From: Ruegeria atlantica
GTDB lineage: Bacteria > Pseudomonadota > Alphaproteobacteria > Rhodobacterales > Rhodobacteraceae
DNA: 64,000 nt
Assembly (NCBI RefSeq): GCF_013032005.1
Contig: NZ_WQBE01000009.1
Coordinates: 62,001 to 126,000, forward strand
Direction: 5' to 3'
The notes under the pieces are model-generated. The model did no database searches and was not told the origin of the DNA. It was given only the letters and a program-made list of their open reading frames with translations. Below, one piece after another: positions 2,655-55,044 of this stretch; the first letter of the stretch is position 1, and every line of letters starts with the position of its first letter. Made by a program: the position numbers and the translations under genes.

Positions 2655-2681
2655 ATAAGCTTCCTCCCGCTTTCTGATTGG

Positions 2682-2699: not shown

Positions 2700-2739
2700 T
2701 CAACGGAAAAAGAAAAGACAGTGAGGTGCCCAAAAGAAA

Positions 2740-2765
2740 GGGGCGGCGCCGTTCTGGCCCGCCCC
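2740..2765 (-). terminator. Rho-independent terminator of the GntR gene at 2790-3461
   Basis: Reading leftward, the arms GGGGCGG and CCGCCCC (2740-2746 and 2759-2765) form a GC-rich stem that is followed on the minus strand by the T-rich run CTTTCTTTTG. It starts 25 bases beyond the stop of the GntR gene and separates it from the ABC operon. Confidence 0.7.
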
Positions 2766-2789
2766 CGTCACAACGAAGCTACGTTTTTG

Positions 2790-3461: not shown

Positions 3462-3500
3462 CTGAGGATATCTCCAAAAAAAGGTGTTGCCAGATGCAAG

Positions 3501-3542
3501 ATATCTGATACACCAGATTAGGCAAGCTGGTATATCAGATAT
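3501..3542. promoter_or_regulatory. Long inverted repeat between GntR gene and lactonase operon (operator)
   Basis: Two 16-base arms (3501-3516 and 3527-3542) pair with a single mismatch around a 10-base spacer. Each arm carries ATATCTGATA. It sits in the divergent promoter region of the regulator and the SMP-30 operon and shares its core with 2682-2699 and 18388-18405. It probably holds one operator dimer site in each arm. Confidence 0.7.
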
Positions 3543-3566
3543 CAGAATGTACTTAGGAGAAAAAAA

Positions 3567-7105: not shown

Positions 7106-8103
7106 AGCGGATCTTTGACACCCAGTTGATCGGGCCATTCGCAGCAATGGTGATTGTCGCACTGATCGTGGCCCTTACGACCGAACGCTTCCTGAACCCG
7201 GGCAACCTTTCTAACCTTTCGCTACAGGTAAGCATCGTGGCCTTGATCGCAATCGGGTCTACTATCGTGATCTTCGCTGCGGGCATCGATCTGAGTTCCG
7301 GGTCTATGGTGGCTTTGCTGACCATGATCCTTGCGCAAATGTTGAAATTTGTCGGCATTCCACTGGTTCTGGCGCTGCCCCTCATACTCTTCATGGGCGG
7401 ATTGCTTGGTCTGTTCATTGGGCTGATAACAGCCTACGGGCGTATTCCGTCGTTTATCACTACATTGGCGGCGTTGATTGCCTTCAGGGGCCTTGCCCTG
7501 ACCTTCAACAATGGGTCTCCGATCTTCTCGCTGGATCCGGCGTTAGAGCCAATCTTCTACGGCAAGCTGTTCGGCGTTCCGATGCCTTTCTTCTACCTCG
7601 TATTCTTCTACGTCCTTGCTGCGTTCACCATGAACTTCACGAAACTTGGGCGTGAGATCTATGCCGTGGGTGGTAACCCAGCCGCTGCCGTTCTGACGGG
7701 TATCAACGTACGTAAAGTTCAGACGACAACATTTGTCATCGCTGGTTTCATGACTGCGGTTGGTGCGATCCTGATGTCAGCGCGCCTCAACTCTGGTTCG
7801 CCCAACTATGGCCAGACGCTGGAACTTCAGGCCATTGCCGCCGCTGTTGTCGGCGGAGCCAGCCTTGCAGGTGGCCGCGGCAACATCCTCGCCACGCTGA
7901 TGGGGGCGATGACAATCGTTATCGTCCAGAATGGTTTGAACCTAAACGCTGCGCCATCTTCGGTTCAGAATATCGTGCTGGGCCTGATCATTCTGTTGGC
8001 CGTCGGCATAGACATGTGGCGCTCGGAGATTTCGGCCTTGATGGGTCGAATGTTCGGCCGCCCTTCATCGCAGCAGTCATCTAACGTTAAGAAGGAGGCC
8101 TGA
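7102..8103 (+). CDS. Sugar ABC transporter permease
   Basis: An inner-membrane RbsC-family permease of 333 residues. Family patterns include AAGIDLSSGSMVALLTMI, GLITAYGRIPSFITTLAAL and AAAVVGGASLAGGRGNI. AGGAGG lies just before the ATG, which overlaps the ATPase stop (ATGA). It is the membrane part of the importer encoded from 4463. The following SDR gene begins right after its stop, so transport and catabolism are co-transcribed. Confidence 0.92.
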   Translation: MKRIFDTQLIGPFAAMVIVALIVALTTERFLNPGNLSNLSLQVSIVALIAIGSTIVIFAAGIDLSSGSMVALLTMILAQMLKFVGIPLVLALPLILFMGGLLGLFIGLITAYGRIPSFITTLAALIAFRGLALTFNNGSPIFSLDPALEPIFYGKLFGVPMPFFYLVFFYVLAAFTMNFTKLGREIYAVGGNPAAAVLTGINVRKVQTTTFVIAGFMTAVGAILMSARLNSGSPNYGQTLELQAIAAAVVGGASLAGGRGNILATLMGAMTIVIVQNGLNLNAAPSSVQNIVLGLIILLAVGIDMWRSEISALMGRMFGRPSSQQSSNVKKEA

Positions 8104-8104
8104 G

Positions 8105-8893
8105 ATGGATCTGGGGCTCAAAAATAAACTGGTCCTGGTGACTGGTTCAGGTTCCGGCATCGGCAAAGCCACTGCCCGGATCTACCTGGAAGAGGGCGCG
8201 CGGGTCATCGTGCATGGTCTGACCGCAGCGGAAGTGTCCGACTGCGTCGACGACCTGTCATCTCTGGGCGACGTCGAAGGCATTGCGGCCGACCTAACCA
8301 AGACGTCTGATGCGGAAACTCTGGCGGAGTTTGCCCGCGCACGCGGTGCGGTGGATGTTCTTGTGAATAATGTCGGCATCTTTTCGGTTAAGCCGTTCGA
8401 GGATCTCACGGATGACGACTGGATGCACTATTTCAACATCAATGTCCTGTCTGCCGTTCGGATGAGCCGAATTTTCCTGCCAGACATGCTTGGCCGGGAT
8501 AAGGGATCTATCATCAACATGGCCAGCGAAGCGGCAGTGAAACCACTACCTCAGATGGTGCATTATTCTGTCACTAAAACTGCCATGTTAGGTCTGACAC
8601 GTGGCATGGCAGAATTGACAAAGGGTACAAAAGTCCGGGTTAACTCGATCCTGCCTGGTCCGACCTGGACAGAAGGTGTCGAAGCCTATTTTGACGGCCT
8701 CGCCGATCAAAAGGGTGAGCCGCTCGACACCATCGTCGACAATTATTTTAAATCAGATGAGCCCACATCGCTCATACAGCGCTTTGTCCAACCAGACGAA
8801 GTCGCCCGCATGATCGTCACGATCTCAGCAAGCACAGCCTCCAATGGTTCTGCGCACCGGATCGAAGGCGGCATCGTTCGCAACATTCTTTAA
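8105..8893 (+). CDS. SDR family NAD(P)-dependent oxidoreductase
   Basis: A classical short-chain dehydrogenase of 262 residues. The cofactor motif TGSGSGIG is near residue 14, NNVG follows in the fourth strand, and the catalytic set is visible as Ser in NMASEAA and YSVTK. It probably oxidises a hydroxyl of the imported sugar or sugar acid, or its lactone precursor. AAGGAGG lies just before the ATG and the gene follows the permease by one base. The C-terminal IEGGIVRNIL is like the usual SDR end. NAD against NADP preference and substrate are not resolved. Confidence 0.88.
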   Translation: MDLGLKNKLVLVTGSGSGIGKATARIYLEEGARVIVHGLTAAEVSDCVDDLSSLGDVEGIAADLTKTSDAETLAEFARARGAVDVLVNNVGIFSVKPFEDLTDDDWMHYFNINVLSAVRMSRIFLPDMLGRDKGSIINMASEAAVKPLPQMVHYSVTKTAMLGLTRGMAELTKGTKVRVNSILPGPTWTEGVEAYFDGLADQKGEPLDTIVDNYFKSDEPTSLIQRFVQPDEVARMIVTISASTASNGSAHRIEGGIVRNIL

Positions 8894-9410: not shown

Positions 9411-10434
9411 TCGCGCCGACTTTCCCCCCAGAACGGACAAACCCAAGGTCGTGATAACCGATTACGACTTTGGTAATGTTGCCGTTGAGACGGAAATCCT
9501 GGAAGCCGCAGGAGCCGAGGTGATTGCGCTTCAGGCCAAGCGCCAGGAAGACCTGTTTGATGTCGCGCCGCATTGCGCAGCGATGATGAACCAATATGCC
9601 CGGATCGGGAAAGAAACGATTACGCGGATGCGGAACTGCGAAGTCATCGCGCGCTATGGCGTAGGCGTAGATATCGTGGATGTCGGCACGGCAACGGAAA
9701 AAGGCATCCTCGTTACCAACGTGCAAAACTATTGCACCGAGGAAGTCGCCGATCACGCGATTGCCCTTTGGCTGACCCTGGCGCGCAAGTTGCCTGACTA
9801 TGATCGGGCCACTCACGCAGGGGTCTGGCAATGGCAAAGCGGGCAGCCGGTCTACCGGTTGCGCGGGCGGACGATGGGTGTCGTTTCGCTGGGTAAAATC
9901 GGGCAAGCCATCGTTGCGCGGGCGCAATCTTTCGGAGTTACGGTCATCGCTTACGACCCGTATTTGCCAAGAGAAGTCGCCGCGAAGATTGGGGTCGAGC
10001 TGGTGAGCAAGCCCGAATTGCTAGCAAGGTCCGACTATATCCTGATGCAGGCGCCGATGACGCCGAACACGCATCACTTTTTGTCGGATGCCGAATTCTC
10101 GGTCATGAAACCCGGTGCGATACTCGTGAACACTGGACGCGGACCAACGGTCGACAACAAAGCCCTGTTCCGGGCGCTGACCGAAGGCCATTTGGCCGCT
10201 GCAGGGCTCGACGACCCCGAAGAAGAGCCGGCAAAGCGCGCCAACTGGACGCCTGATGACAACCCGTTGTTCACACTGCCCAACGTCCTCGTAACACCAC
10301 ATGCCGCCTACTATTCCGAGGAATCGATACACGCAGCGCGGGTTACCGCGGCTACGCAAGTGGCCAAGGTCCTGACAGGACAAAACCCCGACTACACAGT
10401 CAATGCCGACGCATTGGCCGTATCTACCGCATAA
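9403..10434 (+). CDS. D-2-hydroxyacid dehydrogenase family protein (CtBP-like)
   Basis: An NAD-dependent 2-hydroxyacid dehydrogenase of 343 residues. The Rossmann motif is GVVSLGKIGQAIVARAQSFG, followed by the nucleotide Asp in VIAYDPY. The catalytic Arg is in VNTGRGPTVD, the Glu in the DDPEEEP region and the His in VTPHAAYYSEES. The ATG at 9403 overlaps the VOC stop, which fixes the start; an upstream GTG at 9397 is less likely. The enzyme probably interconverts a 2-keto and a 2-hydroxy acid of the pathway. Confidence 0.87.
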   Translation: MTDRADFPPRTDKPKVVITDYDFGNVAVETEILEAAGAEVIALQAKRQEDLFDVAPHCAAMMNQYARIGKETITRMRNCEVIARYGVGVDIVDVGTATEKGILVTNVQNYCTEEVADHAIALWLTLARKLPDYDRATHAGVWQWQSGQPVYRLRGRTMGVVSLGKIGQAIVARAQSFGVTVIAYDPYLPREVAAKIGVELVSKPELLARSDYILMQAPMTPNTHHFLSDAEFSVMKPGAILVNTGRGPTVDNKALFRALTEGHLAAAGLDDPEEEPAKRANWTPDDNPLFTLPNVLVTPHAAYYSEESIHAARVTAATQVAKVLTGQNPDYTVNADALAVSTA

Positions 10435-10446
10435 CAGGAGACAAGA

Positions 10447-11136
10447 ATGCCAGACGTCAGCACGGACCTTAGGGTTTTCAATGATTTTGAAAGAAACCCG
10501 GAACTTCTCAAAAAATTTGACAAGGTGTTGGAGGCGTACTCTGCTGCTGCCATTTTTGCGGATGTGCAGTACCGAACAGGCGTGATGGACAGCGCCATCA
10601 AGCCCGCTTTCCGCGCCAAGGTGACAGGCCAGGCCGTGACGGTCCAGCTTTCAAAAGGTGATCTGGTCGACCCATTGCGAGCGCTTGAAATGGGACAACC
10701 CGGGGACGTGATCGTTGTGGACGCGGGTGGTGATCGTCAAACGTCAGTCTGCGGCGGTTTAATGGGTGGCCTGGCCAAGAACCGTGGCATTCGGGGGATG
10801 ATCGTAGATGGCACTGGGCGTGACACAGATGAGTTGGAAGACATTAACTGGCCAATCTGGACGCGCGCGATCACGCCGCGCGGAACGCACACGATGTTCT
10901 CGGAACGTAAAGAAGAACTTTCGATCAATGTGCCAATCGCCTGTGGGGGCGTCGTGGTAAACCCCGGAGATTTCATTGTAGCTGATCTTATGGGCGTCGT
11001 CGTGGTTCCACAGGAAATTGCCGAAGAAACCGTGCGCCTTGCTCAAGAGCAAGCTGACCGTGAGGAGGAAACCCGTAAATGGGTGTCCCAAGGCAAAACC
11101 GTTGAGGATCTGCTAAATGAATTCGGTCGCATCTGA
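10447..11136 (+). CDS. RraA-like protein / 4-hydroxy-4-methyl-2-oxoglutarate aldolase family
   Basis: A 229-residue protein with the RraA fold. The family site is visible as GGLMGGLAKNRGIRGMIVDGTGRDTDEL, where the Arg and the RD Asp are the metal/substrate positions, followed by NPGDFIVADLMGVVVVP. In this family some members are class II pyruvate aldolases and others are regulators or oxaloacetate decarboxylases. In a sugar-acid operon an aldolase or decarboxylase role is likelier than RNase E inhibition. AGGAG precedes the ATG. The gene overlaps dgoK by 20 bases. Confidence 0.83.
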   Translation: MPDVSTDLRVFNDFERNPELLKKFDKVLEAYSAAAIFADVQYRTGVMDSAIKPAFRAKVTGQAVTVQLSKGDLVDPLRALEMGQPGDVIVVDAGGDRQTSVCGGLMGGLAKNRGIRGMIVDGTGRDTDELEDINWPIWTRAITPRGTHTMFSERKEELSINVPIACGGVVVNPGDFIVADLMGVVVVPQEIAEETVRLAQEQADREEETRKWVSQGKTVEDLLNEFGRI

Positions 11137-12037
11137 ACCAGCGCTGATCGGCGTAGATTGGGGCACTTCATCGTTTCGTGCATTTCTAATTGGTGCGGAG
11201 GGCGACGTGATCGATGGGGTCTCGTCGCCTGAAGGTATCATGCAGGTTGCGGGACAAACCTTTGAGGCGGTCCTTGATCGTCTAATCGGCCCTTGGGTCG
11301 CCAAGGCTAACCTGCCGATCCTGGCATCTGGCATGATCACCAGCCGCAATGGTTGGGTAGAAACGCAATATGCTGAAATGCCGCTGGGTGCTGGCGGTCT
11401 TGCGCGAGCGTTGGTCCCCCACGAAGCGGCCAACGGAGCGCGTATTCATTTTGTGACAGGTGCTTCGACGGAACATGCCGGAGGACCGGACGTAATGCGC
11501 GGCGAGGAGACCCAGATCATCGGGGCATCTTCGTTAGGTTTGAGCGAAGGTATGTTCGTGATGCCGGGAACGCACAGCAAATGGGTTCAGGTTGCCGACG
11601 GGAAGATCGTGGATTTCTCGACCTACATGACAGGTGAGATCTTTTCGGCGCTGAAAGAACACACGATCCTTGGCACCTTGATGAAGGAGGACGCCTTCAG
11701 CGAAGACGCATTCGTGATGGGCGTCAAGGCGGGCCTCAGTGGTGAGTCGAACCTGCTGCACAGCCTGTTTCATGTTCGGACGCTTCCTCTCATGGGCAAA
11801 ATCCCGAAGGTTGCTACGGCCGACTACTTGTCGGGCTTGTTGATCGGGACCGAGGTTGCCGCCGCGACCGGCGAAGTAAAAGACGTCGGCAGGATCACTG
11901 TTGTTGGACGTAGCGATTTGTCTGACCGATACGAAATAGCGCTTCGAACTGCTGGTTTAGACAGCCGTCGCGCGCCAGATGATATCGTTGCGAAAGGGCA
12001 TTTTCTGATTGCTCGCGCTGCGGGGTTGGTCGGATGA
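11117..12037 (+). CDS. dgoK: 2-dehydro-3-deoxygalactonokinase
   Basis: Phosphorylates 2-keto-3-deoxygalactonate at C6 in the DeLey-Doudoroff branch. The 306 residues begin with GVDWGTSSFRAFLI, the ATP-binding start of the DgoK family, and continue with MRGEETQIIGA and MPGTHSKWV, both typical of DgoK. The next gene is the matching KDPGal aldolase, overlapping by 4 bases, which strongly supports the call. The products feed pyruvate and glyceraldehyde-3-phosphate to central metabolism. No sugar-acid dehydratase of the enolase or IlvD type is encoded in this operon, so the substrate must be supplied from elsewhere or by an unrecognised enzyme. Confidence 0.9.
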   Translation: MNSVASEPALIGVDWGTSSFRAFLIGAEGDVIDGVSSPEGIMQVAGQTFEAVLDRLIGPWVAKANLPILASGMITSRNGWVETQYAEMPLGAGGLARALVPHEAANGARIHFVTGASTEHAGGPDVMRGEETQIIGASSLGLSEGMFVMPGTHSKWVQVADGKIVDFSTYMTGEIFSALKEHTILGTLMKEDAFSEDAFVMGVKAGLSGESNLLHSLFHVRTLPLMGKIPKVATADYLSGLLIGTEVAAATGEVKDVGRITVVGRSDLSDRYEIALRTAGLDSRRAPDDIVAKGHFLIARAAGLVG

Positions 12038-12660
12038 TTGACCTCACCGCAGCTCTTGCTGAGAACCCGCTGATCGCGATTTTGCGGGGGCTGGCACCAG
12101 AAAATGCGCGCCCGGTGTCTGATGTACTCTTCGATACCGGGTTTCGGATCATCGAAGTGCCGCTCAACTCACCGGACCCGCTGGAATCGATTACGCAGAT
12201 CGTTGCGAAACATGGTGCTCAAGCCATCGTCGGCGCTGGCACTGTGTTGACTACGGACCAGGTCGCGGCGGTTGCAGATGCAGGCGGGCGGATCATCGTG
12301 TCGCCCAATATGAACCCGGACGTCGGGCGCGCGGCTGTCGCTCGGGATCTTTATTGGTGTCCAGGAGTCATGACCCCCTCCGAGGCCTTTACGGCGTTGG
12401 ATATCGGAGCATCGGTCCTCAAATTCTTTCCGGCGGAAATGATGCCGCCAGCTGCCATTGCTGCCATGCGCGCCGTATTGCCAGCAGACGCAGTCGTCGC
12501 TGCGGTAGGGGGCATCACGCCGGATACGATGGCGTCGTATCGTGCCGCGGGTGTAGATGGATATGGGCTGGGGTCCGCGCTGTTCAAACCGAGCTATACA
12601 TTGGATGATATCGGAAGGCGCGCGCGCGCCTTCACCAGTGTATTGGAGGAACTTGGATGA
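12034..12660 (+). CDS. dgoA: 2-dehydro-3-deoxy-6-phosphogalactonate aldolase
   Basis: A class I aldolase of the KDPG/KDPGal family, 208 residues, splitting KDPGal to pyruvate and glyceraldehyde-3-phosphate. Visible motifs are IEVPLNSPDPLESI (catalytic Glu; the N-S-P form points to KDPGal rather than KDPG aldolase), VGAGTVLT, SPNMNPDV and LKFFPAE, which carries the Schiff-base Lys. It is coupled to dgoK by ATGA and to the next SDR gene by the same overlap. Confidence 0.93.
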   Translation: MIDLTAALAENPLIAILRGLAPENARPVSDVLFDTGFRIIEVPLNSPDPLESITQIVAKHGAQAIVGAGTVLTTDQVAAVADAGGRIIVSPNMNPDVGRAAVARDLYWCPGVMTPSEAFTALDIGASVLKFFPAEMMPPAAIAAMRAVLPADAVVAAVGGITPDTMASYRAAGVDGYGLGSALFKPSYTLDDIGRRARAFTSVLEELG

Positions 12661-39845: not shown

Positions 39846-39872
39846 AGCAAATAAATGCAAATGGAGGATGTA

Positions 39873-40829
39873 ATGATCAGACGCAGCATTATAGCTATTG
39901 GCATTTCTGTGGGGGCGACACCTGCCGTCGCAGAAGGTGACTTTGACTTTGAGAAGGGTTTCGCTGCCTTCGAAGACTTGTTTGGTGTGACTGAAGGTAA
40001 ACGCCGCAATCACACCAAAGGATTTTGCGTTGAGGGCACGCTTACACCCTTAGACGAGACGATTGAAACGTACTCCAACAGCACTTTGTTCACTAGTGAA
40101 TCTTCGGTTATTGCTCGGGTGTCCCACAAGGGTGGTAAGGCAAATCCAGCAGACGACAAATACGGGCTACTTGGGCTATCGATGGAGATCACGACGCCGG
40201 AGGAAGACCTGCACGTGATTGCCATGAACACCGAACACTTCTTTCCGGTGCCGACGAGCAAAGCGTTCATCGAACTATTGCGTGCCAAGGCCGCTGGAGC
40301 GGAAGCAACCAAGGCGTTTGCAGCCGCCAATCCTTCATTGAAGACCTACAGCGAGTATCATGGCGCGTTGGATAAATCGCTTCGACCCCATGAGGGTACA
40401 ACCTACTACAGCGTGAATTCTTTCCTCCTTGTAAATGACGCGGGTCAAGAAACTGCGATGCGATTCTATTTCCGCCCATCGGGGCAGGAGGATATCGTTG
40501 TTGACACTCACCCCGACTTCTTCATTGAAAACATGCAGGCCAATATCGCCAACGGGGGCGTGTCCTGGGACATGGTTATCGTTCTGGCTAACGCTGATGA
40601 CAATGTCGAAGATCCCTCTGTTCAGTGGACCGGCGATCACACAGAAATCGTTGCTGCGCGCTTCACAGCGAATGCTGCGATGACTGAGACTGATGGGCAG
40701 TGTGACGAGATCAACTTTGACCCGCTGATCTTGAGCGACGGCTTTGCACCATCCAATGATCCCATGTTGAAAGCACGATCGTTGATCTACGCACATGGTG
40801 TGGGAAAACGGCTGTCTGAAAAAGAATAA
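39873..40829 (+). CDS. Periplasmic mini-catalase (catalase-family peroxidase)
   Basis: A 318-residue catalase-fold haem protein about two thirds of catalase length. A signal peptide (IIAIGISVGATPAVAEG) sends it to the periplasm. The distal His is in RRNHTKGFCVEG, the Asn/strand region in VIARVSHKGGKANPADDKYGLLGLS, and the proximal Tyr in LKARSLIYAHGVGKRL. The ATG at 39873 follows GGAGG; the upstream in-frame ATG at 39855 is discounted. It uses peroxides, and the divergent OhrR-like gene suggests organic peroxide or peroxide induction. Confidence 0.83.
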   Translation: MIRRSIIAIGISVGATPAVAEGDFDFEKGFAAFEDLFGVTEGKRRNHTKGFCVEGTLTPLDETIETYSNSTLFTSESSVIARVSHKGGKANPADDKYGLLGLSMEITTPEEDLHVIAMNTEHFFPVPTSKAFIELLRAKAAGAEATKAFAAANPSLKTYSEYHGALDKSLRPHEGTTYYSVNSFLLVNDAGQETAMRFYFRPSGQEDIVVDTHPDFFIENMQANIANGGVSWDMVIVLANADDNVEDPSVQWTGDHTEIVAARFTANAAMTETDGQCDEINFDPLILSDGFAPSNDPMLKARSLIYAHGVGKRLSEKE

Positions 40830-40981: not shown

Positions 40982-41878
40982 ATGTCACAGGCAGTAAAAC
41001 TGATCGACGCATTGAATGGAACGTTTGGCCGTCACAATGGCTATCGCGCGTCACACGCAAAGGGGTTTACAGCACAGGGGCGTTTCTGTCCTGCTGCGGA
41101 GGAGCCGAGAGTTCAAATCCCGATGTTGAACAATGAATGCAAGGTTACGGCGCGCTTCTCCGTTGGGGGTGGAAAACCGGGCATCAGTGACAAAAGCCCT
41201 TCGGTGCGCGGGATTGGGCTGGAGATCGGAAAAGGATCAGAATCTTGGGTTCTGACGTTAATTTCGAACCCGATTTTCTTTGCCAACTCTGCTGCACAAT
41301 TCCGGGCTTTTCTTGCCGCTCGTATTCCTGATCCGGACACCGGTGCCCCGGATCCGAAGTTGGTAGAAGCCTTTAATGAGGCAAACCCCAACACGGTGCC
41401 ACACCAACAATATCTGAAGTCTGTTGTGCCGTGCCGTTGTTATTCGTCTGAACAATACCACTCTGGTCATGCTTATCGGTTTGATTGGAGTGGAAGGGAA
41501 ATCTCTGCCCGAATTCTGCTGGAGCCGGAGGGTGGGCGTTTGGCATTGAGCAAGGAAGAGATGGAAACCCTCTCGGATGACTTCCTTCATGACAGGTTCC
41601 TGGAAAAGCTCTGCGATGGTCCCGCCCGTTGGTCGTTGAAGTTGGTGATCGCGAACGCCGCTGACAATGTGTCTGATCCGACTGTGCCTTGGAGTGGGAC
41701 ACATACCATGGTTGATCTTGGGACAATTCAGGTTGAGCTACCTGATGATCGTTCTGAAAGCACCAAAAAGGTGTTCGACCCAACCCGGATGCCTGAAGGA
41801 GTTAGGGCACCCCTGGATGATGTTTTTTCCCTGCGAAGTGGAGCTTACGCGGAATCTGCGGCAAGACGATCCGTCTGA
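40982..41878 (+). CDS. Cytoplasmic mini-catalase (catalase-family peroxidase)
   Basis: A 298-residue paralogue of the preceding protein without a signal peptide. The distal His is in YRASHAKGFTAQGRF, the strand after it is VTARFSVGGGKPGISDKSPSVRGIGLE, and the proximal Tyr is in DVFSLRSGAYAESAARR. AAGGAGG precedes the ATG. It is 152 bases downstream of the periplasmic version, so cytoplasm and periplasm each get a peroxidase. The long palindrome at 41909 may end its transcript. Confidence 0.85.
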   Translation: MSQAVKLIDALNGTFGRHNGYRASHAKGFTAQGRFCPAAEEPRVQIPMLNNECKVTARFSVGGGKPGISDKSPSVRGIGLEIGKGSESWVLTLISNPIFFANSAAQFRAFLAARIPDPDTGAPDPKLVEAFNEANPNTVPHQQYLKSVVPCRCYSSEQYHSGHAYRFDWSGREISARILLEPEGGRLALSKEEMETLSDDFLHDRFLEKLCDGPARWSLKLVIANAADNVSDPTVPWSGTHTMVDLGTIQVELPDDRSESTKKVFDPTRMPEGVRAPLDDVFSLRSGAYAESAARRSV

Positions 41879-41908: not shown

Positions 41909-41951
41909 TGCCCCCTTTAATAGGTATTGACAATACCTATTAAAGGGGGCA
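41909..41951. promoter_or_regulatory. 43-base perfect palindrome containing an NsrR-type operator
   Basis: Arms of 20 bases (41909-41928 and 41932-41951) pair perfectly around GAC. The inner 23 bases (41919-41941) have the 11-1-11 form AATAGGTATTG/A/CAATACCTATT, also seen at 47476-47498 and 47526-47548. The outer GCCCCC/GGGGGC makes a stable stem, so it may also end the catalase transcript. It lies 33 bases before the globin start. TTGACA occurs at its centre. Confidence 0.75.
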
Positions 41952-41983: not shown

Positions 41984-42403
41984 ATGACAGCTGGGATGCT
42001 TGCCAAACCACAGATGTTTGAAATTTCCGCTGAGGAAATTGAGTTATTGGTTTGCCGGTTTTACGCGCAGATAAGGGTGCATCCTGTATTGGGTCCCGTG
42101 TTCAATGAGGCCATTCAGGATTGGAAAGCCCACGAAGAAAAGATCGCATCGTTTTGGCGCGGCGCGATCCTGAGGGAGCCCGGGTATTCCGGAAATCCAA
42201 TGCAGGCTCATCTTGCAAATTCAGACATCCTTCCCGAGCATTTTCCCTTGTGGCTCGATCTGTTTGGCGAAACGGCACATCAGGTTCTGCAGCCAGATAC
42301 CGCTCAAGCTTTTACTCATTTGACCAACCGGATCGGTAAAGGTTTGACCTTTGGGATCGAGAACTTTCGTCGCGAGGTGGGTGCCCCGCCGGTGTTGTCA
42401 TGA
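41984..42403 (+). CDS. Group 3 truncated haemoglobin
   Basis: A 139-residue 2-on-2 globin. VCRFYAQIRVHPVLGPVF carries the B10 Tyr, FWRGAILREPGYSGNPMQAHL the proximal His and FPLWLDLFGET the conserved Trp of class III. GGAG lies about nine bases before the ATG. Such globins are linked to nitric oxide handling. It heads the operon with DUF2189, DUF1971 and cbb3 genes and lies directly behind an NsrR-type operator. It overlaps the next gene by 4 bases. Confidence 0.9.
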   Translation: MTAGMLAKPQMFEISAEEIELLVCRFYAQIRVHPVLGPVFNEAIQDWKAHEEKIASFWRGAILREPGYSGNPMQAHLANSDILPEHFPLWLDLFGETAHQVLQPDTAQAFTHLTNRIGKGLTFGIENFRREVGAPPVLS

Positions 42404-46991: not shown

Positions 46992-47456
46992 TTAATGATC
47001 TGAAGCCAGCGCATGACTAACTTCTAGCGCTCGGATCAGGTTTTTCATTCCGCGATTTCCTTCCAAAACATCCTGCAATGTCTTGCTGTCCAAGGCAGTA
47101 AAAAACGCCTCCTGAGCTTCAGTCAGGATTGGTAGCAACCCACAGGCAGGCGTCATCACACAACAGCCGCCGTCTTCTTTCATACACTCAACCAAAGGGG
47201 TGCCGCGTTCGGATTTTCGCAGCAGGCCGCCAATCGAGATCGCATTGGGAGGCAAGGCCATTCGCATTCCTCCGTTGCGTCCACGAACGGATTCTACGTA
47301 GCCCTCGTGTGTGAGCCACTGGGAGATCTTGGCCAGGTGATTGAAGGGCAAGTTTTGCATCGCCGCAATCTCGCGGGTCGACATCAACCCCTCTTCGTGG
47401 GTGGCAAGATGGATCAGGATGCGCAAGGCATAGTCGGAAAACTTGGTAATTTGCAT
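46992..47456 (-). CDS. nsrR: Rrf2 family regulator, NsrR-like
   Basis: A 154-residue regulator with MQITKFSDYALRILIHLATHEEGLMSTREIAAMQNLPFNHLAKISQWLTHEGYVESVRGRNGGM as winged helix and a Cys cluster ECMKEDGGCCVMTPACGL suited to an iron-sulfur cluster. The DNA-binding part and Cys spacing fit NsrR, the NO-sensing repressor. The start is ATG 47456 (an upstream in-frame ATG exists). It converges on the cbb3 operon and diverges from norS, with two 11-1-11 palindromes in the shared promoter region; a third lies before the globin gene. NO damage to the cluster should derepress all three units. Confidence 0.82.
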   Translation of the reverse strand: MQITKFSDYALRILIHLATHEEGLMSTREIAAMQNLPFNHLAKISQWLTHEGYVESVRGRNGGMRMALPPNAISIGGLLRKSERGTPLVECMKEDGGCCVMTPACGLLPILTEAQEAFFTALDSKTLQDVLEGNRGMKNLIRALEVSHALASDH

Positions 47457-47475
47457 AGTTATATCTCTCATAAAA

Positions 47476-47498
47476 AATAGGCTTTGAAAATGCCTATT
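47476..47498. promoter_or_regulatory. NsrR-type operator, Rrf2-proximal
   Basis: An 11-1-11 site beginning AATAGGC and ending GCCTATT, palindromic with extra flanking A/T (9-base arms AAAATAGGC/GCCTATTTT). It sits 20 bases before the Rrf2 start codon and just upstream of the norS -35 box, so it can repress the regulator and the nor promoter. Confidence 0.72.
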
Positions 47499-47501
47499 TT
47501 G

Positions 47502-47528
47502 TTGACATCTTTTTCTGATCTTTATAAT
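47502..47528 (+). promoter_or_regulatory. Promoter of the norS operon
   Basis: TTGACA (47502-47507) and TATAAT (47523-47528) match the sigma-70-type consensus perfectly, though the 15-base gap is short. It starts 61 bases before the norS ATG and is bracketed by the two operators, a classical repression layout. Confidence 0.65.
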
Positions 47529-47548
47529 AGGTATTTAAAATGCTTAAT
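47526..47548. promoter_or_regulatory. NsrR-type operator, norS-proximal
   Basis: AATAGGTATTT, A and AAATGCTTAAT form an imperfect 11-1-11 site that overlaps the -10 box of the norS promoter. It matches the left arm of the 41919 site almost exactly. Confidence 0.68.
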
Positions 47549-47562
47549 AAAGGAGGTGGCTC

Positions 47563-48072
47563 ATGCAGCCTGTTGTACTTTTGATCTCGCTGATCCTGAT
47601 GGCAGCGCTGTCACTTGTCTTCTGGAAGGCCGCGCGCGCCTCGAACGGGGCGGAAGCAGGACCCAATGCCAACTCGAAGCGTGCGGGCTTGATCTGGGCA
47701 ATGACGATTGTTGGAGTAATCGTGGCAGTCGGTTCATTGCGACCATGGCCGCACGCTTTGGCCAGTACAGATGATGCCATCACCGTTTCCATCACCAGCG
47801 GGCAGTGGTGGTGGGATATCGACACAGTTGAGATCCCTGTGGGAACGCCCATCAATTTTAGCGCCACGACCGAAGATGTTACCCACGGATTGGGCATTTA
47901 CACTTCAGACCTCCGCCTTCTGACGCAGGTCCAAGTGATCCCCGGTTACACAACCGAAGTTTCTTACACGTTCGATGAACCCGGCACTTACCAAGTCCTG
48001 TGCATGGAGTTCTGCGGGGTGGCGCATCAGGACATGGTCAACGAATTCGAAGTCGTCGCGGTGGAGGAATAA
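47563..48072 (+). CDS. norS: NorS-type CuA subunit of haem-copper NO reductase
   Basis: A 169-residue subunit-II-like protein. Two N-terminal membrane segments precede a cupredoxin domain with a full CuA site: His108, Cys147, Glu149, Cys151, His155 and Met158 (CMEFCGVAHQDM). QWWWDID is the usual aromatic electron-entry patch. AGGAGG precedes the ATG. Gene order norS-norY-senC-orf1 is that of the sNOR locus described in ammonia oxidisers. It should accept electrons from a cytochrome c such as the one at 52092. Confidence 0.85.
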   Translation: MQPVVLLISLILMAALSLVFWKAARASNGAEAGPNANSKRAGLIWAMTIVGVIVAVGSLRPWPHALASTDDAITVSITSGQWWWDIDTVEIPVGTPINFSATTEDVTHGLGIYTSDLRLLTQVQVIPGYTTEVSYTFDEPGTYQVLCMEFCGVAHQDMVNEFEVVAVEE

Positions 48073-49533
48073 ATGAGCGCTGTATCTGAACTTGTCGCGG
48101 AAAAATCAGTCGTCACTGAACCCCAGGCTGAGGCAGTCAAGCTTACCATGATCCTCTCAGGCGCGGTCTTTGCCTTGATGATGGTCTTTGGTCTGATCAT
48201 GCGTGCTGCGCAGGGCCAATGGATCGAAGTGGATCCGGCTTTGTTTTATCAGTTGCTGACGGCCCATGGCGCCGGAATGGTTGGTACAGCTGCACTGTCT
48301 GGCGCCGCAATCATGTGGTATTTTTGCGGGCGTCATATCGTTCTGACAGCTGGAATCTTTTGGGCTTTCCTTGCTTTGTTTCTGCTGGGCGTCGTCCTGA
48401 TCTTCGGCTCGATCTTCATCGGCGGATATGGCGGCGCATGGACATTCCTGTTTCCCTTGCCCGCGATGTCAGGCGGAGCGTGGGAAGCGGGCGCGGCTGC
48501 TGCGTTCATGCTTGGATATGTTTCGATCGGCGTTGGCTTTCTGCTGTATTATCTGGAGCTCGGTCGTCAGATTCATGCCCGTTATGGCAGCCTTTTGCGC
48601 GCCCTGGGCTGGAACCTGATCCTAGGGCGAGAGGACAAAAATCCTCCGCCGCCAACAATCATCGCGGCGGCGGCCGTGACTATTTTCAATTCGATCGGGA
48701 TAATCCTAGGTGCCGCGGTGTTGGTGGCGAGCCTTGTCCACCTGCTGGTGCCGGGTTTTGAAGTAAACGCGCTGTTGGCCAAGAACCTGATCTATTTCTT
48801 TGGCCACGTTTTCATCAATGCCTCAATCTACATGGCCGTCACTGCGGTGTATGAAATCCTGCCGGAATACACCGGCAAACCGTGGAAATCGAACCGTCTG
48901 TTTGCGATTGCCTGGAATGCAGTTCTGATCTTCGTGATGGCTGTTTACTGGCACCATCTGCTTCAGGATGTGGTGATGCCACCCTGGATGCTGGTGGTCG
49001 GGCAACTGGTCTCATACTTAAGCGGCATTCCCCTCATCGCGGTCACAGCATTCTCTACGTTCCTCTATGTGCGAGGTTCGAAAATGACCTGGGATCTGAC
49101 GTCCTCACTGCTGGTTCTGTCCGTGGCAGGCTGGTCGGTCGGCTCAATCCCCGCGTCAATCGACGGGATGATCAGTGTGAACAAAGTGATGCACAATACA
49201 ATGTGGGTCCCGGGGCATTTCCACACCTACCTGCTGCTGGGCGAAGTGGCGATGGCCTTTGGGTTCATGGCCTGGCTGGTCCGAGGCAAAAACATCGCCC
49301 AGATGAGCGGGTTGGACCGGGTCGCTTTTGTGACCTACCTCGCAGGCGCCGCTGGGTTTGTGACGGTGTTTCTCTTCTCTGGTGCGGCTTCGATCCCGCG
49401 TCGCTGGGCGGTGCACTACGAAGAATGGCTGACCCACGACCGCATTGGCACCTTGTTCGGCGTGCTGGTCGTGTTGGGAACATTGCTCTTTGTTCTGCGC
49501 TTTGTGCTGCGTCTTGGGCGGAGTGACAGCTGA
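48073..49533 (+). CDS. norY: NorY-type catalytic subunit, haem-copper NO reductase (sNOR)
   Basis: A 486-residue haem-copper subunit I related to B-family (ba3) oxidases. Haem and copper ligands are present: His65 (LTAHGAG), His245 (FFGHVFIN), His294/His295 (YWHHLLQD) and His382/His384 (PGHFHTY). The cross-linked Tyr of oxygen reductases, four residues after the first CuB His in GHPxVY, is Asn249 here, so O2 reduction by the usual mechanism is unlikely and NO reduction is expected. It begins right at the norS stop and overlaps senC by one base. Not proven biochemically from sequence alone. Confidence 0.82.
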   Translation: MSAVSELVAEKSVVTEPQAEAVKLTMILSGAVFALMMVFGLIMRAAQGQWIEVDPALFYQLLTAHGAGMVGTAALSGAAIMWYFCGRHIVLTAGIFWAFLALFLLGVVLIFGSIFIGGYGGAWTFLFPLPAMSGGAWEAGAAAAFMLGYVSIGVGFLLYYLELGRQIHARYGSLLRALGWNLILGREDKNPPPPTIIAAAAVTIFNSIGIILGAAVLVASLVHLLVPGFEVNALLAKNLIYFFGHVFINASIYMAVTAVYEILPEYTGKPWKSNRLFAIAWNAVLIFVMAVYWHHLLQDVVMPPWMLVVGQLVSYLSGIPLIAVTAFSTFLYVRGSKMTWDLTSSLLVLSVAGWSVGSIPASIDGMISVNKVMHNTMWVPGHFHTYLLLGEVAMAFGFMAWLVRGKNIAQMSGLDRVAFVTYLAGAAGFVTVFLFSGAASIPRRWAVHYEEWLTHDRIGTLFGVLVVLGTLLFVLRFVLRLGRSDS

Positions 49534-50132
49534 TGATTGCGCGCGCTCTTCCCTCGGTTCTGGTCGCGAGCATCGGCTTGGGAACTCTCTGGCATGCCAC
49601 AGATGGAGGGCAGGCTTTCACCAGCGAAGCCGCTCGGAGATTGGACGTGGTGCGCGCACCGCGTCCAGTTCCAGCCCTGCAACTGGAAGACATGTCAGGT
49701 CAGTTGATGCCCCTGTTGCCGCAAGGGGAGGAGGTGGTTTTGGTCGAGTTCATCTACACCGTGTGCGGCGACATCTGCCAGATTGCAGGCGCAGACTTTG
49801 CCAAGATCCGAGATCAATTGGAACAGCGTGGAGAGCCCGTCCGGATGATCTCGGTCAGTTTTGATCCTAAGCGAGACACGCCCGATCAGATGACGATTTA
49901 CGGGGAAGCCCATGAGGCGGACGGCAAAATGTGGACCGTTGCGCGGCCGAGGCCAGAAGAGTTGCCGGCATTGTTGAAGCTTTTTGACGTGACTGTCATT
50001 CCCGATGAATGGGGCGGGTTTCAGCACAATGCCGCAATCCATGTGATTGACAGCGAGGGCCGCTTTTCGGCGGTGTATGACACCGATGCGATCGACGCTA
50101 TTCTGACCCATTTAGAGGAGCGCAGCTCATGA
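49533..50132 (+). CDS. senC: SCO1/SenC family copper chaperone
   Basis: A 199-residue membrane-anchored thioredoxin-fold protein. The copper site is Cys78 and Cys82 (TVCGDIC) with His165 in GGFQHNAA. It delivers copper to the CuA centre of NorS. SVSFDPKRDTPDQM is a family signature. The ATG overlaps the norY stop and its end overlaps the next gene by 4 bases. Confidence 0.9.
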   Translation: MIARALPSVLVASIGLGTLWHATDGGQAFTSEAARRLDVVRAPRPVPALQLEDMSGQLMPLLPQGEEVVLVEFIYTVCGDICQIAGADFAKIRDQLEQRGEPVRMISVSFDPKRDTPDQMTIYGEAHEADGKMWTVARPRPEELPALLKLFDVTVIPDEWGGFQHNAAIHVIDSEGRFSAVYDTDAIDAILTHLEERSS

Positions 50133-50689
50133 AGTTGCTTGGCTTGGCCTTCCTGGCTTCTGCCGAGGCCGTTGCACTTCGCTATGCGGTTGTTGAAAGT
50201 CCGATCCAGCATGTCCTGGTGCAGATGCCATTGTTGGTTCTGGCCGGGGTGTTGTTGGCTTGGAACAGGCAGGTCCGGCGTGAATGGGCTGTTCCGTTGC
50301 TACTTGTGGCCTTGACCGTATTTCTGTTCTGGATGCTGCCAAGAAACGTTGATTGGGCGCTGACGCCGACAGGGGAACTTACTAAATATCTGAGCTTGCC
50401 TTTGCTGTTGGGGGCACTGCTGAGGTTGTCCTGGCCCTGGCTGGGCCCGGTGCTTCGCGGATTCCTGAAGGCGAATGCGCTGTCGATGCTGGGTGTGCTG
50501 GGTTTTCTGTATACGCATGCGCCGGTCAGGATTTGCAACTCCTACCTGGTCTCGGCTCAGAAGGATCTGGGCATGGCCTTTCTCTACCTCGCTGCATGCT
50601 TGGCCTGTCTCTGGGCTATCCCGATCCTGTTTGGAAATCCAAGTGGCCAAAGGTCGAACGCGACCGGCTGCGCAAGCTGTGGAGTGTAA
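50129..50689 (+). CDS. Membrane protein of the nor locus (orf1 position)
   Basis: A 186-residue inner-membrane protein with about five hydrophobic segments and no recognised family. It holds APVRICNSYLVSAQKDLGMAFLYLAACLACLW and ends with GCASCGV, giving C-x2-C. By position it is the orf1 partner that follows norS-norY-senC in known sNOR clusters. A role in assembly or metal supply is possible. Confidence 0.65.
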   Translation: MKLLGLAFLASAEAVALRYAVVESPIQHVLVQMPLLVLAGVLLAWNRQVRREWAVPLLLVALTVFLFWMLPRNVDWALTPTGELTKYLSLPLLLGALLRLSWPWLGPVLRGFLKANALSMLGVLGFLYTHAPVRICNSYLVSAQKDLGMAFLYLAACLACLWAIPILFGNPSGQRSNATGCASCGV

Positions 50690-50695
50690 TACGAA

Positions 50696-51511
50696 ATGAC
50701 CTATGCTGACACAGTCATTGGGTTCGCAGAACTGGCGCAAGAGAAAGGCGTCAACCTGCGTGCAGATCCAATTGCCTTTCTGATCCTCGCCTTAAAAGCC
50801 GGGGCGTTTGTTGGTGCCGGTATCTTGCTGATCCTTTCTGTTGGGCAGGGCGCGGATCCATCCATCCGTCCCATCGTCATGGGGGCCAGCTTCGGTATCG
50901 CCTTGACCCTTGTGGTTTTTGCAGGGGCCGAGCTGTTCACTGGTCACACCATGTACATGACGCACGGATTGCTGGCCAAAAGTATTGCTTGGTGGGATGT
51001 GCTGCGCTGCTGGTTGGTCAGTTGGGCAGGAAATCTGATCGGGGCCATATTGCTGGCGTTGCTGTTCGTCGCAGGCGGTGGTGGACTTATCTTAGGGGCA
51101 GGCGAAGAGGCTTTTCTTTATAAGGTGGCCATCAAGAAGATGCACGGCACCGAGTTGGAGCTGTTCGCCAAAGCGATCCTGTGCAATTGGCTGGTTTGTC
51201 TTGCCTTGTGGTGTTCGGCGCGCGCAAAAGACGACGTTACCAAATGCATCGTCATCTTCTGGTGTCTTTATGCATTTATTGCTGCGGGGTTTGAACACAG
51301 CGTTGCGAACATGACCGTGTTTTCACTGGCGCTGATCTCAGATCACCCCGACAGCATCACCCTGGCCGGAGCCGCCCACAATTTGACGTATGTCACCTTG
51401 GGCAACGCATTCGCCGGTGCCGGGATCATGGGCTACGGCTACTGGCGAGCGGCTTCTAAACCCACGGTTAGGGGCGCCGCAACACACGCGTCAACCAAAC
51501 ACCCTGTCTAG
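50696..51511 (+). CDS. Formate/nitrite transporter family channel
   Basis: A 271-residue FNT-family channel with six helices: GAELFTGHTMYMTHGLLAK, RCWLVSWAGNLIGAILLALLF, AILCNWLVCLALWCSARA and FEHSVANMTVFSLAL, where the central-pore His and the Asn-containing half-helices are visible. NirC-like nitrite movement fits the NO-reductase context; formate is possible. The ATG is six bases after the orf1 stop. Confidence 0.87.
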   Translation: MTYADTVIGFAELAQEKGVNLRADPIAFLILALKAGAFVGAGILLILSVGQGADPSIRPIVMGASFGIALTLVVFAGAELFTGHTMYMTHGLLAKSIAWWDVLRCWLVSWAGNLIGAILLALLFVAGGGGLILGAGEEAFLYKVAIKKMHGTELELFAKAILCNWLVCLALWCSARAKDDVTKCIVIFWCLYAFIAAGFEHSVANMTVFSLALISDHPDSITLAGAAHNLTYVTLGNAFAGAGIMGYGYWRAASKPTVRGAATHASTKHPV

Positions 51512-52091: not shown

Positions 52092-52457
52092 ATGCGAGGT
52101 ATTCTTGTGGCTGTAACAATAGCGCTGGCGGGTGCTCAAAGCGTTGCCGCAGAAGGCGACGCGGCGGCAGGCGAAAAAGTTTTCAAAAAATGTGCCGCAT
52201 GTCATGCAGTTGACGAAGGTAAGAAAAAAGTGGGCCCAACGATGCTTGGTGTTTGGGGCCGAGAAGCTGGCGCTGTTGATGGTTACAAATACTCAACAGC
52301 GATGGGGGAAGCCGGATTTATTTGGGATGAAGAACACTTATCCGGGTTCCTAGCGTCTCCCAAAAAGTACCTGCCGGGCACGAAGATGTCCTTTCCCGGA
52401 ATAAAGAAACCGGAGCAAATCTCGGACCTGCTGGCCTATCTGGAAGCCCTGCAGTGA
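52092..52457 (+). CDS. Periplasmic class I cytochrome c
   Basis: A 121-residue monohaem cytochrome c with a signal peptide (AVTIALAGAQSVAAE). The haem site is KKCAACHAVDEG, and the axial Met lies in LPGTKMSFPGIKKPEQISDLLAYLEAL, the usual class I end. AGGAAGGG precedes the ATG. It follows the nor genes and is a plausible electron donor to NorS or CcoP. A strong inverted repeat ends the transcript at 52468. Confidence 0.88.
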   Translation: MRGILVAVTIALAGAQSVAAEGDAAAGEKVFKKCAACHAVDEGKKKVGPTMLGVWGREAGAVDGYKYSTAMGEAGFIWDEEHLSGFLASPKKYLPGTKMSFPGIKKPEQISDLLAYLEALQ

Positions 52458-52542: not shown

Positions 52543-53487
52543 CTAAGCTTTTCCGTTCAAATACCGCGCCATTTCCGGGGCAGCCATAAGGGTCTGAATG
52601 AAAGTCCCGAAATGTTCAAGCGATCCCGTGCGTGGGTCACTGTCGCGCCATGCCAGCCTGATAGAACGGCCAAACACCCCATCCGCAATGGGATGTGTTG
52701 TTGCTAGGCCGCCGAAACGGTCGGGGCCACTCACAGACAATGCCGGAAAAAGCGCGCAACCCTCTCCCAGCGCGACCATTTGCCGGAGCATCTCAAGACT
52801 GCTGGCCACTCTTTGTCCTGGTCGGTCAATCCGGTCGCAAAACGCAACGGTCTGATCCCGTAGACAGTGTTCTTGAGAAAGTAGAACGAGCTGTGAGGAC
52901 AAAACCTTGGACCAACGAACCTTTTCATTGGGTTTGAGATCCAGATCCTTGGGACAGGCAAAAACAAATGGTTCATGAAACAGCTCAAGCGCACTTAGTG
53001 CAGGCTGTTTCGGGTTAGTTGCGATCAGCGCAGCGTCCAGCGCCCGGTTGGTGAGCATCTCTTCAAGAACATGCGTGGGTTCTTCGAATAGTGACAGCCT
53101 TAACTTGGGATAAGCGGCTTTGAGTGACTTGAGGATGAGCGGCAATAAGTAAGGACCAAGGGTTGGAAGTACACCAAACTTCAAATCACCTTCCAGATTG
53201 TCACTCAGGCTCAGCGACAATTCCAACAGCTCACGGGCCTCGGTCAGAAGGATTTCTGCTTTTTGCAGGACTATCCGGCCATTTTGCGTCAAAGAGACAC
53301 GCCTGCCCTGACGTTCGAAAATCGAAAATCCAATTCGGGCCTCTAGCTTCAATACCTGTTGGCTGATTGCCGGTTGTGAAACCCCACAGATATCAGCTGC
53401 TCGGCCAAAATGACCTTCTTCGGCAATGCTTTGAATGTACTCAAGATCTCTGAGTGAAAGACCGGCAACCGAGGTTCTTCTTGCCAT
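52543..53487 (-). CDS. oxyR: Hydrogen peroxide-sensing LysR regulator OxyR
   Basis: A 314-residue LysR-type regulator. The HTH is [27 protein letters not shown]. The redox pair is Cys208 and Cys217 in [16 protein letters not shown], spaced as Cys199/Cys208 of E. coli OxyR. AGAGGTGA precedes the ATG. It is divergent from the catalase gene, with a candidate site at 53500-53516. On peroxide oxidation it should activate katA. Confidence 0.93.
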
Positions 53488-53516: not shown

Positions 53517-53583
53517 TTATATAAGTTGGAGTATTTTGGCGGTTTTCGGTTTTGTCCTGCCAATACCAACTCAGGAGATTGAC

Positions 53584-55044
53584 ATGACCAGCAAACCGAA
53601 ACTGACCACCGCATTTGGCGCACCAGTGCCCGACAACCAAAACACTCTGACGGCGGGGCCGCGTGGTCCTGCGCTGCTTCAGGATGTCTGGTTTCTCGAG
53701 AAGATGGCTCATTTTGATCGCGAAGTGATCCCCGAACGCCGGATGCATGCCAAAGGGTCCGGCGCTTACGGTACGTTCACAGTGACCCACGACATCACAC
53801 GCTATACACGCGCCAAATTGTTCTCTGATGTTGGCAAGATGACGGATCTCTTCCTGCGCTTTTCGACCGTTGCAGGAGAACGCGGTGCGGCGGACGCGGA
53901 ACGGGACATTCGCGGCTTTGCAGTCAAGTTTTACACCGAGGAAGGCAACTGGGATCTGGTGGGCAATAACACTCCAGTGTTTTTCCTTCGCGACCCATTG
54001 AAGTTTCCCGATCTTAACCACGCGGTCAAACGCGATCCGCGGACCAACATGCGCAGTGCGGATAACAACTGGGACTTCTGGACCAGCCTTCCCGAAGCTT
54101 TGCTCCAGGTGACGATTGTTATGTCTGATCGCGGCATTCCCGCAACCTACCGGCACATGCACGGCTTTGGCAGCCACACATTCAGCTTTATCAATTCGGA
54201 CAGCGAACGGTTCTGGGTCAAATTCTATTTCAAAACCCAGCAGGGGATCAAAAACCTTACCGACGAAGAAGCCGCGCAAATCATCTCTGGTGACCGTGAA
54301 AGCCATCAGCGTGATCTTTATGATGCTATCGAAGACGGTGATTTTCCCAAATGGACGCTCTACGTCCAAGTCATGCCAGAGAAGGATGCGGGTACATACC
54401 ACCTCAACCCATTTGATCTGACCAAGGTTTGGCCGCATGGGGACTATCCGCTGATTGAGGTTGGCGAGCTGGAATTGAACCGCAACCCCGAGAACTACTT
54501 TGCCGAAGTGGAACAGGCGGCCTTTGCGCCTTCTACAATTGTACCTGGTATCAGCTTTTCGCCGGACAAAATGCTGCAGGGACGTCTGTTTTCCTATGGC
54601 GACACTCAGCGGTATCGGTTGGGTGTCAACCATTCCCAGATCCCGGTGAATGCGCCGCGTTGCCCGTATCATTCCTACCATCGTGATGGAGCGATGAGGA
54701 TCGACGGCAATGCCGGATCTCGGATTGGCTATGAACCCAATATGCATGCCGAATGGTCGGAGCAACCGGATTTCTCTGAACCACCTTTGTCCATCGAAGG
54801 TGCTGCAGATCATTGGAACCACCGCGAGGATGATGACTATTTCTCGCAACCCGGTGATTTGTTCCGCCTGATGACGCCGGAGCAGCAAAAAGTGTTGTTC
54901 GCAAACACTGCCCGCGCGATTGGCGCTGCAAGGAAGGAAATTCAGATCCGTCACATATCGAACTGTCTCAAGGCCGATCCTGGTTATGGTGCCGGTGTGG
55001 CAAGCGCGCTTGGTTTGAGCATCGAGTGTGTAGACCTGGCATAA
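53584..55044 (+). CDS. katA: Monofunctional haem catalase, small-subunit type
   Basis: A 486-residue clade 3-size catalase that dismutates hydrogen peroxide. The catalytic His is His55 in [13 protein letters not shown], the Asn in [14 protein letters not shown], and the haem Tyr in [15 protein letters not shown]. The ATG at 53584 follows CAGGAG; the longer frame from 53536 has no ribosome site. Controlled by the divergent oxyR. A hairpin follows at 55053. Confidence 0.95.

Follow-up and report, generated by a model that had tools for sequence, protein, structure and literature searches.

A norSY-senC-orf1 cluster has been described in ammonia oxidisers (PMC4940428); it belongs to sNOR, a proposed family of nitric oxide (NO) reductases. 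We analysed a cluster of the same composition, located at positions 47563-50689 of a 64,000-nucleotide stretch of Ruegeria atlantica DNA (contig NZ_WQBE01000009.1, positions 62,001 to 126,000; this whole stretch is called the window below). In the classification of PMC11388526, sNOR, gNOR, and nNOR are ranked as proposed, bNOR (formerly CuANOR) and eNOR as characterised, and the qCuANOR of Bacillus azotoformans is filed apart from sNOR, as bNOR. The genes of the purified Bacillus enzyme were identified in PMC3475470, where a Tyr-to-Asn change was described, genes for SenC and a six-helix membrane protein were found to be linked, and the cluster was equated with sNOR of Nitrosomonas eutropha. 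Table A4 of PMC8756737 (2022) tabulates Asn-bearing sNOR in Betaproteobacteria, Silicibacter, Deinococcus, and Geobacillus; Silicibacter is now Ruegeria, and sNOR in this genus is thus already in print. Because the same table gives Asn for Bacillus CuANOR too, Asn alone cannot separate sNOR from that enzyme. Models of sNOR have been employed in surveys (PMC10359470, PMC12569097, PMC11707229).

The window cluster comprises, on the forward strand, norS (47563-48072), encoding a CuA-bearing subunit II; norY (48073-49533), encoding a B-type haem-copper catalytic subunit; senC (49533-50132), encoding an SCO1/SenC copper chaperone; and orf1 (50129-50689), encoding a small membrane protein conserved with sNOR. 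These gene positions and their order, proposed in a preliminary description of the stretch, match the open reading frames, and the order is complete in 45 of 51 related loci. B-type histidines, the Asn, a CuA subunit II directly upstream, the gene order, and a clade shared with an ammonia oxidiser were all found. With residue, subunit, gene order, and tree in agreement, the sNOR reading of the preliminary description is supported, and we consider it probable, with good confidence, that the cluster specifies an sNOR, a two-subunit B-type haem-copper NO reductase whose activity is predicted. The reading is not new: the cluster adds one member to a family that was described earlier and had already been recorded from this genus.

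Compared by description with sNOR of ammonia oxidisers such as Nitrosomonas europaea (NE0683-86, outside our alignment), the window cluster has the same gene order, family Asn, and CuA subunit. It differs in having a divergent NsrR-like gene, paired palindromes, a formate/nitrite (FNT) channel gene, and cbb3 and globin neighbours, and its host is no ammonia oxidiser. The closest counterpart lies on the megaplasmid of Ruegeria (Silicibacter) pomeroyi DSS-3 (SPO_RS20760-20745): NorY is 88.7% identical over 91% of the query, and Rrf2, FNT, cytochrome c, cbb3, and globin genes are neighbours there as well, but the genes past the cytochrome differ, and one norS palindrome (at up to 4 mismatches) is present versus two in the window. 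The Bacillus azotoformans qCuANOR, likened to the window sNOR by description only and outside both alignment and tree, shares the Tyr-to-Asn change and the CuA subunit and likewise has genes for SenC and a membrane protein linked to it (PMC3475470), but uses menaquinol besides cytochrome c and forms the separate family bNOR (PMC11388526).

Active site and family placement of NorY

NorY scored 156 bits against the COX1 family model. A single-sequence search of solved structures returned 18 chains, all of them ba3-type subunit I and presumably from Thermus; a profile search added 7deg, which we take to be the Aquifex enzyme, and then aa3/bo3-type oxidases. No chain named sNOR was among the matches of either search. 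In an alignment with a Thermus ba3 chain, all six haem and CuB histidines of the latter (H72, H233, H282, H283, H384, and H386) are kept, bearing out the preliminary description, according to which NorY retains all haem and copper histidines of the B family. By the roles of the aligned Thermus residues, H65 and H384 of NorY would bind the low-spin haem, H382 the high-spin haem, and H245, H294, and H295 would bind CuB.

The cross-linked Tyr237 of Thermus aligns with N249 of NorY, within the signature H245-x3-N249-x3-Y253, so the replacement of this Tyr by Asn, also claimed at the outset, was confirmed. N249, H245, H294, H295, H382, and H384 are present in all 52 rows of an alignment of the window with the 51 loci, from which L001-L006 of the window's own genome were omitted; H65 is present in 50 rows, with a gap in the other two. 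In a second set (the window, R. pomeroyi, and 12 further loci that may overlap the 51), N249 was found in 14 of 14 rows. Asn also occupies this position in Thermomicrobium (35% identity) and in a Phycisphaerales genome (34%; one of the 51). When reference rows were included and the partial loci L044, L054, and L055 were omitted, the same column held Tyr in six B-type rows (Thermus, Aquifex, Geobacillus, and three haloarchaea), Gln in five eNOR-like B-type rows, and Glu in the host's own cNOR. A second mark of sNOR is Y253, one turn beyond N249 and invariant in the 52 rows; Y260 is present in 51 of them. At four K-path positions, assigned as in Thermus ba3, two residues are kept (Y248 and T312 as Y260 and T325) and two are lost (Y244 and S309, replaced by V256 and L321). 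In Table A4 of PMC8756737, "no proton channel" is a feature of sNOR, and PMC8906906 terms sNOR electrogenic. On a plasmid of Parasedimentitalea marina (L107, 5977-7349), NorY appears to be split over two frames and has no listed gene.

The preliminary description had suggested a phylogeny as a check, and this was carried out. In a tree calculated without the N249 column, the rows separated by residue into a group of 41 with Asn (99/100), one of six with Tyr (94/95), and one of five with Gln (100/100); 18 of the 75 available rows had been omitted for thinning, namely 17 sNOR rows, some of them near-copies and some not, and the CyoB-like row L002. A smaller, aa3-rooted tree, which took 25 of the 75 rows and kept the column, gave a group of 15 Asn rows (100/100) and one of five Tyr rows (96/98). 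NorY of the window falls outside the Tyr-bearing group in both trees; a position among proven O2 reductases, which the preliminary description had named as refuting its reading, was thus not obtained. It groups with Ruegeria, Leisingera, and R. pomeroyi, and the host's description as a probable marine alphaproteobacterium fits, Ruegeria and Leisingera being the nearest named relatives. The ammonia oxidiser Nitrosovibrio sp. Nv17 (L034) falls in the same sNOR group in both trees, which were built without N. europaea and Bacillus bNOR sequences. For the deep order of the sNOR, Tyr, and Gln groups, including the parent branch of sNOR, the program warned that long branches meet in these trees.

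Neither mark of a ba3-type O2 reductase, the cross-linked Tyr or grouping with the Thermus and Aquifex oxidases, was found in NorY, and the two hydrophobic segments of NorS (simple hydropathy count) also set the enzyme apart from Thermus ba3. Like eNOR, NorY would be a B-type NO reductase with the Tyr replaced, but it lacks the Gln of eNOR, which forms a separate tree group. With cNOR (NorB), it shares the proposed reaction, but cNOR has Glu at the Tyr position and is very distant in the tree.

An intact CuA subunit and an SCO chaperone were both expected from the preliminary description and both are present: the CuA ligands H108, C147, C151, H155, and M158 of NorS were found in 50 of 50 rows and E149 in 49, while C78, C82, and H165 of SenC (the CxxxC motif, C78-x3-C82, and His of SCO proteins) were found in 48 of 48. 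The six loci with an incomplete cluster are L044 and L055, where norS is missing at a contig end, L037-L039, which gave no senC match, and L057, which has neither senC nor orf1. The orf1 gene is present in 50 of the 51 loci. Among 23 Orf1 rows (those of a profile, A2, built from 22 loci and the window), 12 positions are invariant, including D75, K86, and C136; weak Pfam DUF1404 matches (best 4.3e-05) were obtained for four of the 23, the window's own not among them. Since it constantly accompanies sNOR, a role for Orf1 in assembly or as a further subunit is suggested; the six-helix membrane protein linked to Bacillus qCuANOR (PMC3475470) would be a possible parallel. A relationship of Orf1 to the CtaG-type assembly protein of Thermomicrobium was also considered, and the comparison gave nothing (probability 0.5%). 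On a Thermomicrobium roseum plasmid (L064), genes for an FNT channel and a CtaG-type protein take the place of senC-orf1 behind an Asn-bearing NorSY-like pair.

An NsrR-like regulator and its candidate sites

Divergent to norS lies a gene for an Rrf2-family regulator (46992-47471, reverse strand), with the spacing Cys-x7-Cys-x5-Cys. The protein exceeds the Rrf2 superfamily cut-off; its best NCBIfam equivalog is NsrR, at 106.5 bits (cut-off 182), followed by RirA at 94.5 bits (cut-off 193). Upstream of norS, two 23-base palindromes, to which no strand is assigned, are located at 47476-47498 and 47526-47548. They score 16 and 17 of 20 against an NsrR consensus, as compared with a mean of 12.2 for shuffled sequences, and none of 300 shuffles reached 17. 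The core of this consensus, gATGyAT-N5-ATrCATc, was taken from PMC1274295, and flanks were added to it. The match is close and inexact; the most frequent deviation puts G in place of T at a single position of each half. A candidate norS promoter (47502-47528, forward strand) has TTGACA at 47502-47507, between the palindromes, a 15-base spacer, and TATAAT at 47523-47528, where it overlaps the second palindrome. It is absent from the output of a promoter scan, and its spacing is outside the accepted 16-18 bases.

Of the 17 relatives that have a divergently placed regulator gene, 16 gave p<=0.02 for their best site. A pattern drawn from these norS sites matched three times in the window and not once in 100 shuffles. 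In the 4.4-Mb genome, at up to 3 mismatches, only the same three sites were obtained, and a reversed-pattern control gave 0. The third site (41919-41941, no strand assigned) lies 42 bases before a truncated haemoglobin-like gene (41984-42403, forward strand), which is followed on the same strand by a DUF2189 gene and by cbb3 genes. The gene product scored 16.0 bits against Pfam Bac_globin, below the cut-off of 21, and had no NCBIfam match; its positional counterpart in R. pomeroyi is annotated as a group III truncated hemoglobin. The third palindrome is contained in a perfect 21+1+21 inverted repeat (41909-41951, centred on 41930). This repeat separates the truncated-globin gene from a catalase-family gene and could also be a terminator.

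When 54 other loci were searched at up to 4 mismatches, 29 sites were obtained in 18 of them (17 of the 51, and R. pomeroyi), compared with 0 in each of three shuffles, which kept at least 99.5% of the length, and 0 with the reversed pattern. Read against the gene table, 25 of the 29 sites are at norS or within about 130 bases upstream of it. The others precede the R. pomeroyi globin gene (L063), a cytochrome c gene of Ruegeria sp. THAF57 (L019), and an Rrf2 gene (L043), except for one in L013, which was assigned to no gene. R. pomeroyi thus has sites before both norS and the globin gene. In THAF57, the palindrome (9433-9455) immediately precedes the cytochrome c gene, which lies downstream of sNOR.

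In print, nsrR is listed near sNOR of Nitrosococcus oceani (Noc2967 and Noc2969-2971; PMC3772326). For the alphaproteobacteria examined in PMC1274295, the account given there names no nsrR except in Rhodobacter capsulatus E1F1. Among the matches listed in a search of open-licence literature, covering titles and abstract openings, nothing was found on Roseobacter sNOR, these palindromes, or the FNT neighbour.

Neighbouring genes, distribution, and other NO enzymes

The formate/nitrite channel and cytochrome c that were said to adjoin the cluster are encoded at 50696-51511 and 52092-52457, both on the forward strand. The channel is NirC-like (259 bits against a NirC model with a cut-off of 293), and the small c-type cytochrome is a possible electron donor to CuA. 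An FNT gene follows the cluster in 24 of the 51 loci, an NsrR-like gene is divergent upstream in 17 and present anywhere in the locus in 24, a cbb3 subunit I gene is near the cluster in 15 as well as in the window, and a cytochrome c gene is downstream in three and in R. pomeroyi; the loci underlying these counts vary in length, and contig ends cut some of them. The recurring FNT neighbour, together with the NsrR-like palindromes and the NO switch that they predict, sets the window cluster above the routine. In Leisingera aquimarina (L014, 8624-9626), the FNT channel gene appears to be split over two frames. Two catalase-family genes lie side by side in the window (39855-40829 and 40982-41878), and a catalase-like open reading frame, recognised by eye (53536-55044), adjoins a gene for an OxyR-like regulator (52543-53487). 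Together, these genes would form a peroxide-defence flank around the respiratory genes of the window.

A NorY profile (A1), built from 34 of the 51 loci and the window, was searched against one genome per species. At E<1e-190, the class gave matches in 5 of 385 genomes, the family in 6 of 198, and the phylum in 6 of 398, the window's own genome being included each time; the one other congener in the family sample gave no match at 1e-60. The distribution of the cluster is patchy, and in R. pomeroyi and Parasedimentitalea it is plasmid-borne.

The window genome also encodes NirS (C25:33019-34698), a cd1 nitrite reductase that matches solved chains of cd1 nitrite reductases best (418 bits), and a cNOR NorB (C25:36676-38040; L005, L108), whose nearest solved chain is 4xyd, a nitric-oxide reductase subunit B (878 bits). 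No copper nitrite reductase above the cut-off was found in this genome. Its haem-copper subunit I genes number six: aa3-type, CyoB-like (below cut-off), two cbb3-type, NorB, and NorY. Because a cNOR is also encoded, sNOR is, on sequence grounds, the predicted second NO reductase of this genome. Neither NirS and cNOR nor the divergent Rrf2 gene with its palindromes figured in the preliminary description. We take 4xyd to be the NOR of Roseobacter denitrificans, with low NO and marked O2 activity. That enzyme is described as reducing O2 readily and NO poorly (PMC6967387). If the host's own NorB acts likewise, sNOR may, by analogy, weigh more for host NO than a second rank implies.

NorB-like proteins also include NO dismutase. 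A NorB match (E<=1e-40) was obtained in 6 of 13 sNOR genomes. The seven others were searched for haem-copper subunits: five (G424, G131, G316, G467, and G903) carry an eNOR-like Gln protein, and in G521 (four matches) and G354 (two matches; 86% complete), only aa3-, cbb3-, or sNOR-type matches were found. These type assignments do not extend to L139 of G903 and L140 of G467, whose matches are weak (44.7 and 26.9 bits, respectively). The idea that sNOR is the sole NO reductase of its hosts was thereby weakened. The five eNOR-like B-type proteins (L128-L132) carry a GHSSQQ motif. In G424, a member of the family, three features share a 10-kb section of contig C4 (L144; also L099, L130, L133): sNOR at 2416-3840, the gene of a cd1-type nitrite reductase, matched at 7121-8671 and thus 3.3 kb away from sNOR, and an eNOR-like Gln protein, matched at 10782-12101.

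Proposed reduction of NO and its alternatives

In the cross-linked Tyr, oxidases have a residue that supplies an electron and a proton for splitting O2; the NorY site has Asn249 instead. We propose that a periplasmic cytochrome c would give electrons to CuA in NorS and that the low-spin haem of NorY would relay them to its high-spin haem and CuB, where two NO would be reduced to N2O. The ligands of all these centres are present in the sequences. SenC would load CuA, and Orf1 would be a membrane protein that acts in assembly or as an accessory. For the divergent Rrf2 protein, the probable role is that of an NsrR-type repressor, which would bind the palindromes observed at the norS promoter and release DNA when NO damages its Fe-S cluster. 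Its control would extend to the truncated-globin gene and perhaps also to the cbb3 genes that follow. In a genome with NirS and cNOR, the likely role would be removal of NO, sustaining low-oxygen respiration.

Several observations weigh against this proposal. NO reduction by the window NorSY is predicted from sequence, and the NO reductase activity of sNOR is itself termed proposed or only indirectly shown (PMC6967387, PMC11388526). In N. europaea, sNOR was up 2.7- to 10.8-fold under O2 limitation and cNOR was the main NO reductase (PMC6967387); the window cluster adjoins cbb3 genes, which fits induction by low oxygen as well as by NO. No NirS match (E<=1e-40) was found in 7 of the 13 sNOR genomes, and a copper nitrite reductase match was found in only one. 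The regulator scores under the NsrR cut-off and nearly equally with RirA, so it can be called NsrR-like only. At norS the match is partly circular, since the upstream regions of this gene had supplied the pattern; this does not apply to the sites at the globin, cytochrome, and regulator genes. At up to 4 mismatches, no site was obtained in 34 of the 51 loci, and in L032, which also has a divergent regulator, the best site is no better than chance (p 0.11). For these two reasons, we conclude that the predicted NsrR-like regulation is common to close relatives and not to all sNOR.

The cluster could instead specify a high-affinity terminal oxidase for low oxygen, in which another residue, such as Y253, invariant in the 52 rows, or Y260, present in 51 of them, replaces the Tyr. 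This was argued for N. europaea from induction under O2 limitation in PMC6967387, where indirect evidence for an NO reductase in Nitrococcus is also mentioned, and it would fit the cbb3 subunit I genes that occur close to the cluster both in the window and in 15 of the 51 loci. We regard it as quite unlikely, given that the Tyr column splits the reference oxidases from the sNOR rows and the trees separate both, that the NsrR-like gene and palindromes point to NO, that the genome already holds two cbb3-type, one aa3-type, and one CyoB-like subunit I, and that the purified, Asn-bearing Bacillus enzyme reduces NO (PMC3475470). A reversed reaction, in which NorSY would turn NO into nitrite at CuB, besides its reduction or in place of it, and pass the electron via CuA to cytochrome c, with the nitrite leaving or entering by the FNT channel, seems to us highly improbable. 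Its support is gene context: an FNT gene follows the cluster in 24 of the 51 loci, including Nitrosovibrio, and follows the Asn-bearing pair of Thermomicrobium, and this neighbour recurs in both alpha- and betaproteobacteria; moreover, the NO-oxidising enzyme of ammonia oxidisers is described as unidentified (PMC6967387). The other 27 loci show no FNT gene, however, FNT proteins also carry formate, and norSY is stated in PMC4940428 to be absent in some ammonia oxidisers, so that NorSY could not serve every ammonia oxidiser as its essential NO oxidase. If NO oxidation did take place, sNOR would be a candidate for NO-to-nitrite activity outside globins.

The third alternative concerns the regulator and is compatible with sNOR. 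The Rrf2 protein could be an iron (RirA-type) or general Fe-S regulator, so that the locus would answer to iron or redox state. The proximity of the two equivalog scores, both under their cut-offs, allows this, and the Cys spacing is not decisive; the resemblance of the palindromes to the NsrR consensus and the position of the sole other genome site, before a globin gene, make it unlikely, though less so than the two preceding alternatives.

Whether sNOR acts on NO or O2 is still argued in the literature (PMC6967387, PMC11388526). The Ruegeria/Leisingera cluster, with its near-twin in R. pomeroyi DSS-3, allows tests of sNOR outside ammonia oxidisers, and the shared palindromes predict that NO, not low oxygen alone, would turn on norSY and the globin gene together. 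R. pomeroyi NorY is annotated as "cbb3-type cytochrome c oxidase subunit I", and the KEGG name for sNOR is coxA (PMC11388526). If the predicted NO switch exists, sNOR in these bacteria would be an NO shield that produces N2O, and gene surveys that file sNOR as coxA or cbb3 subunit I would overlook it.

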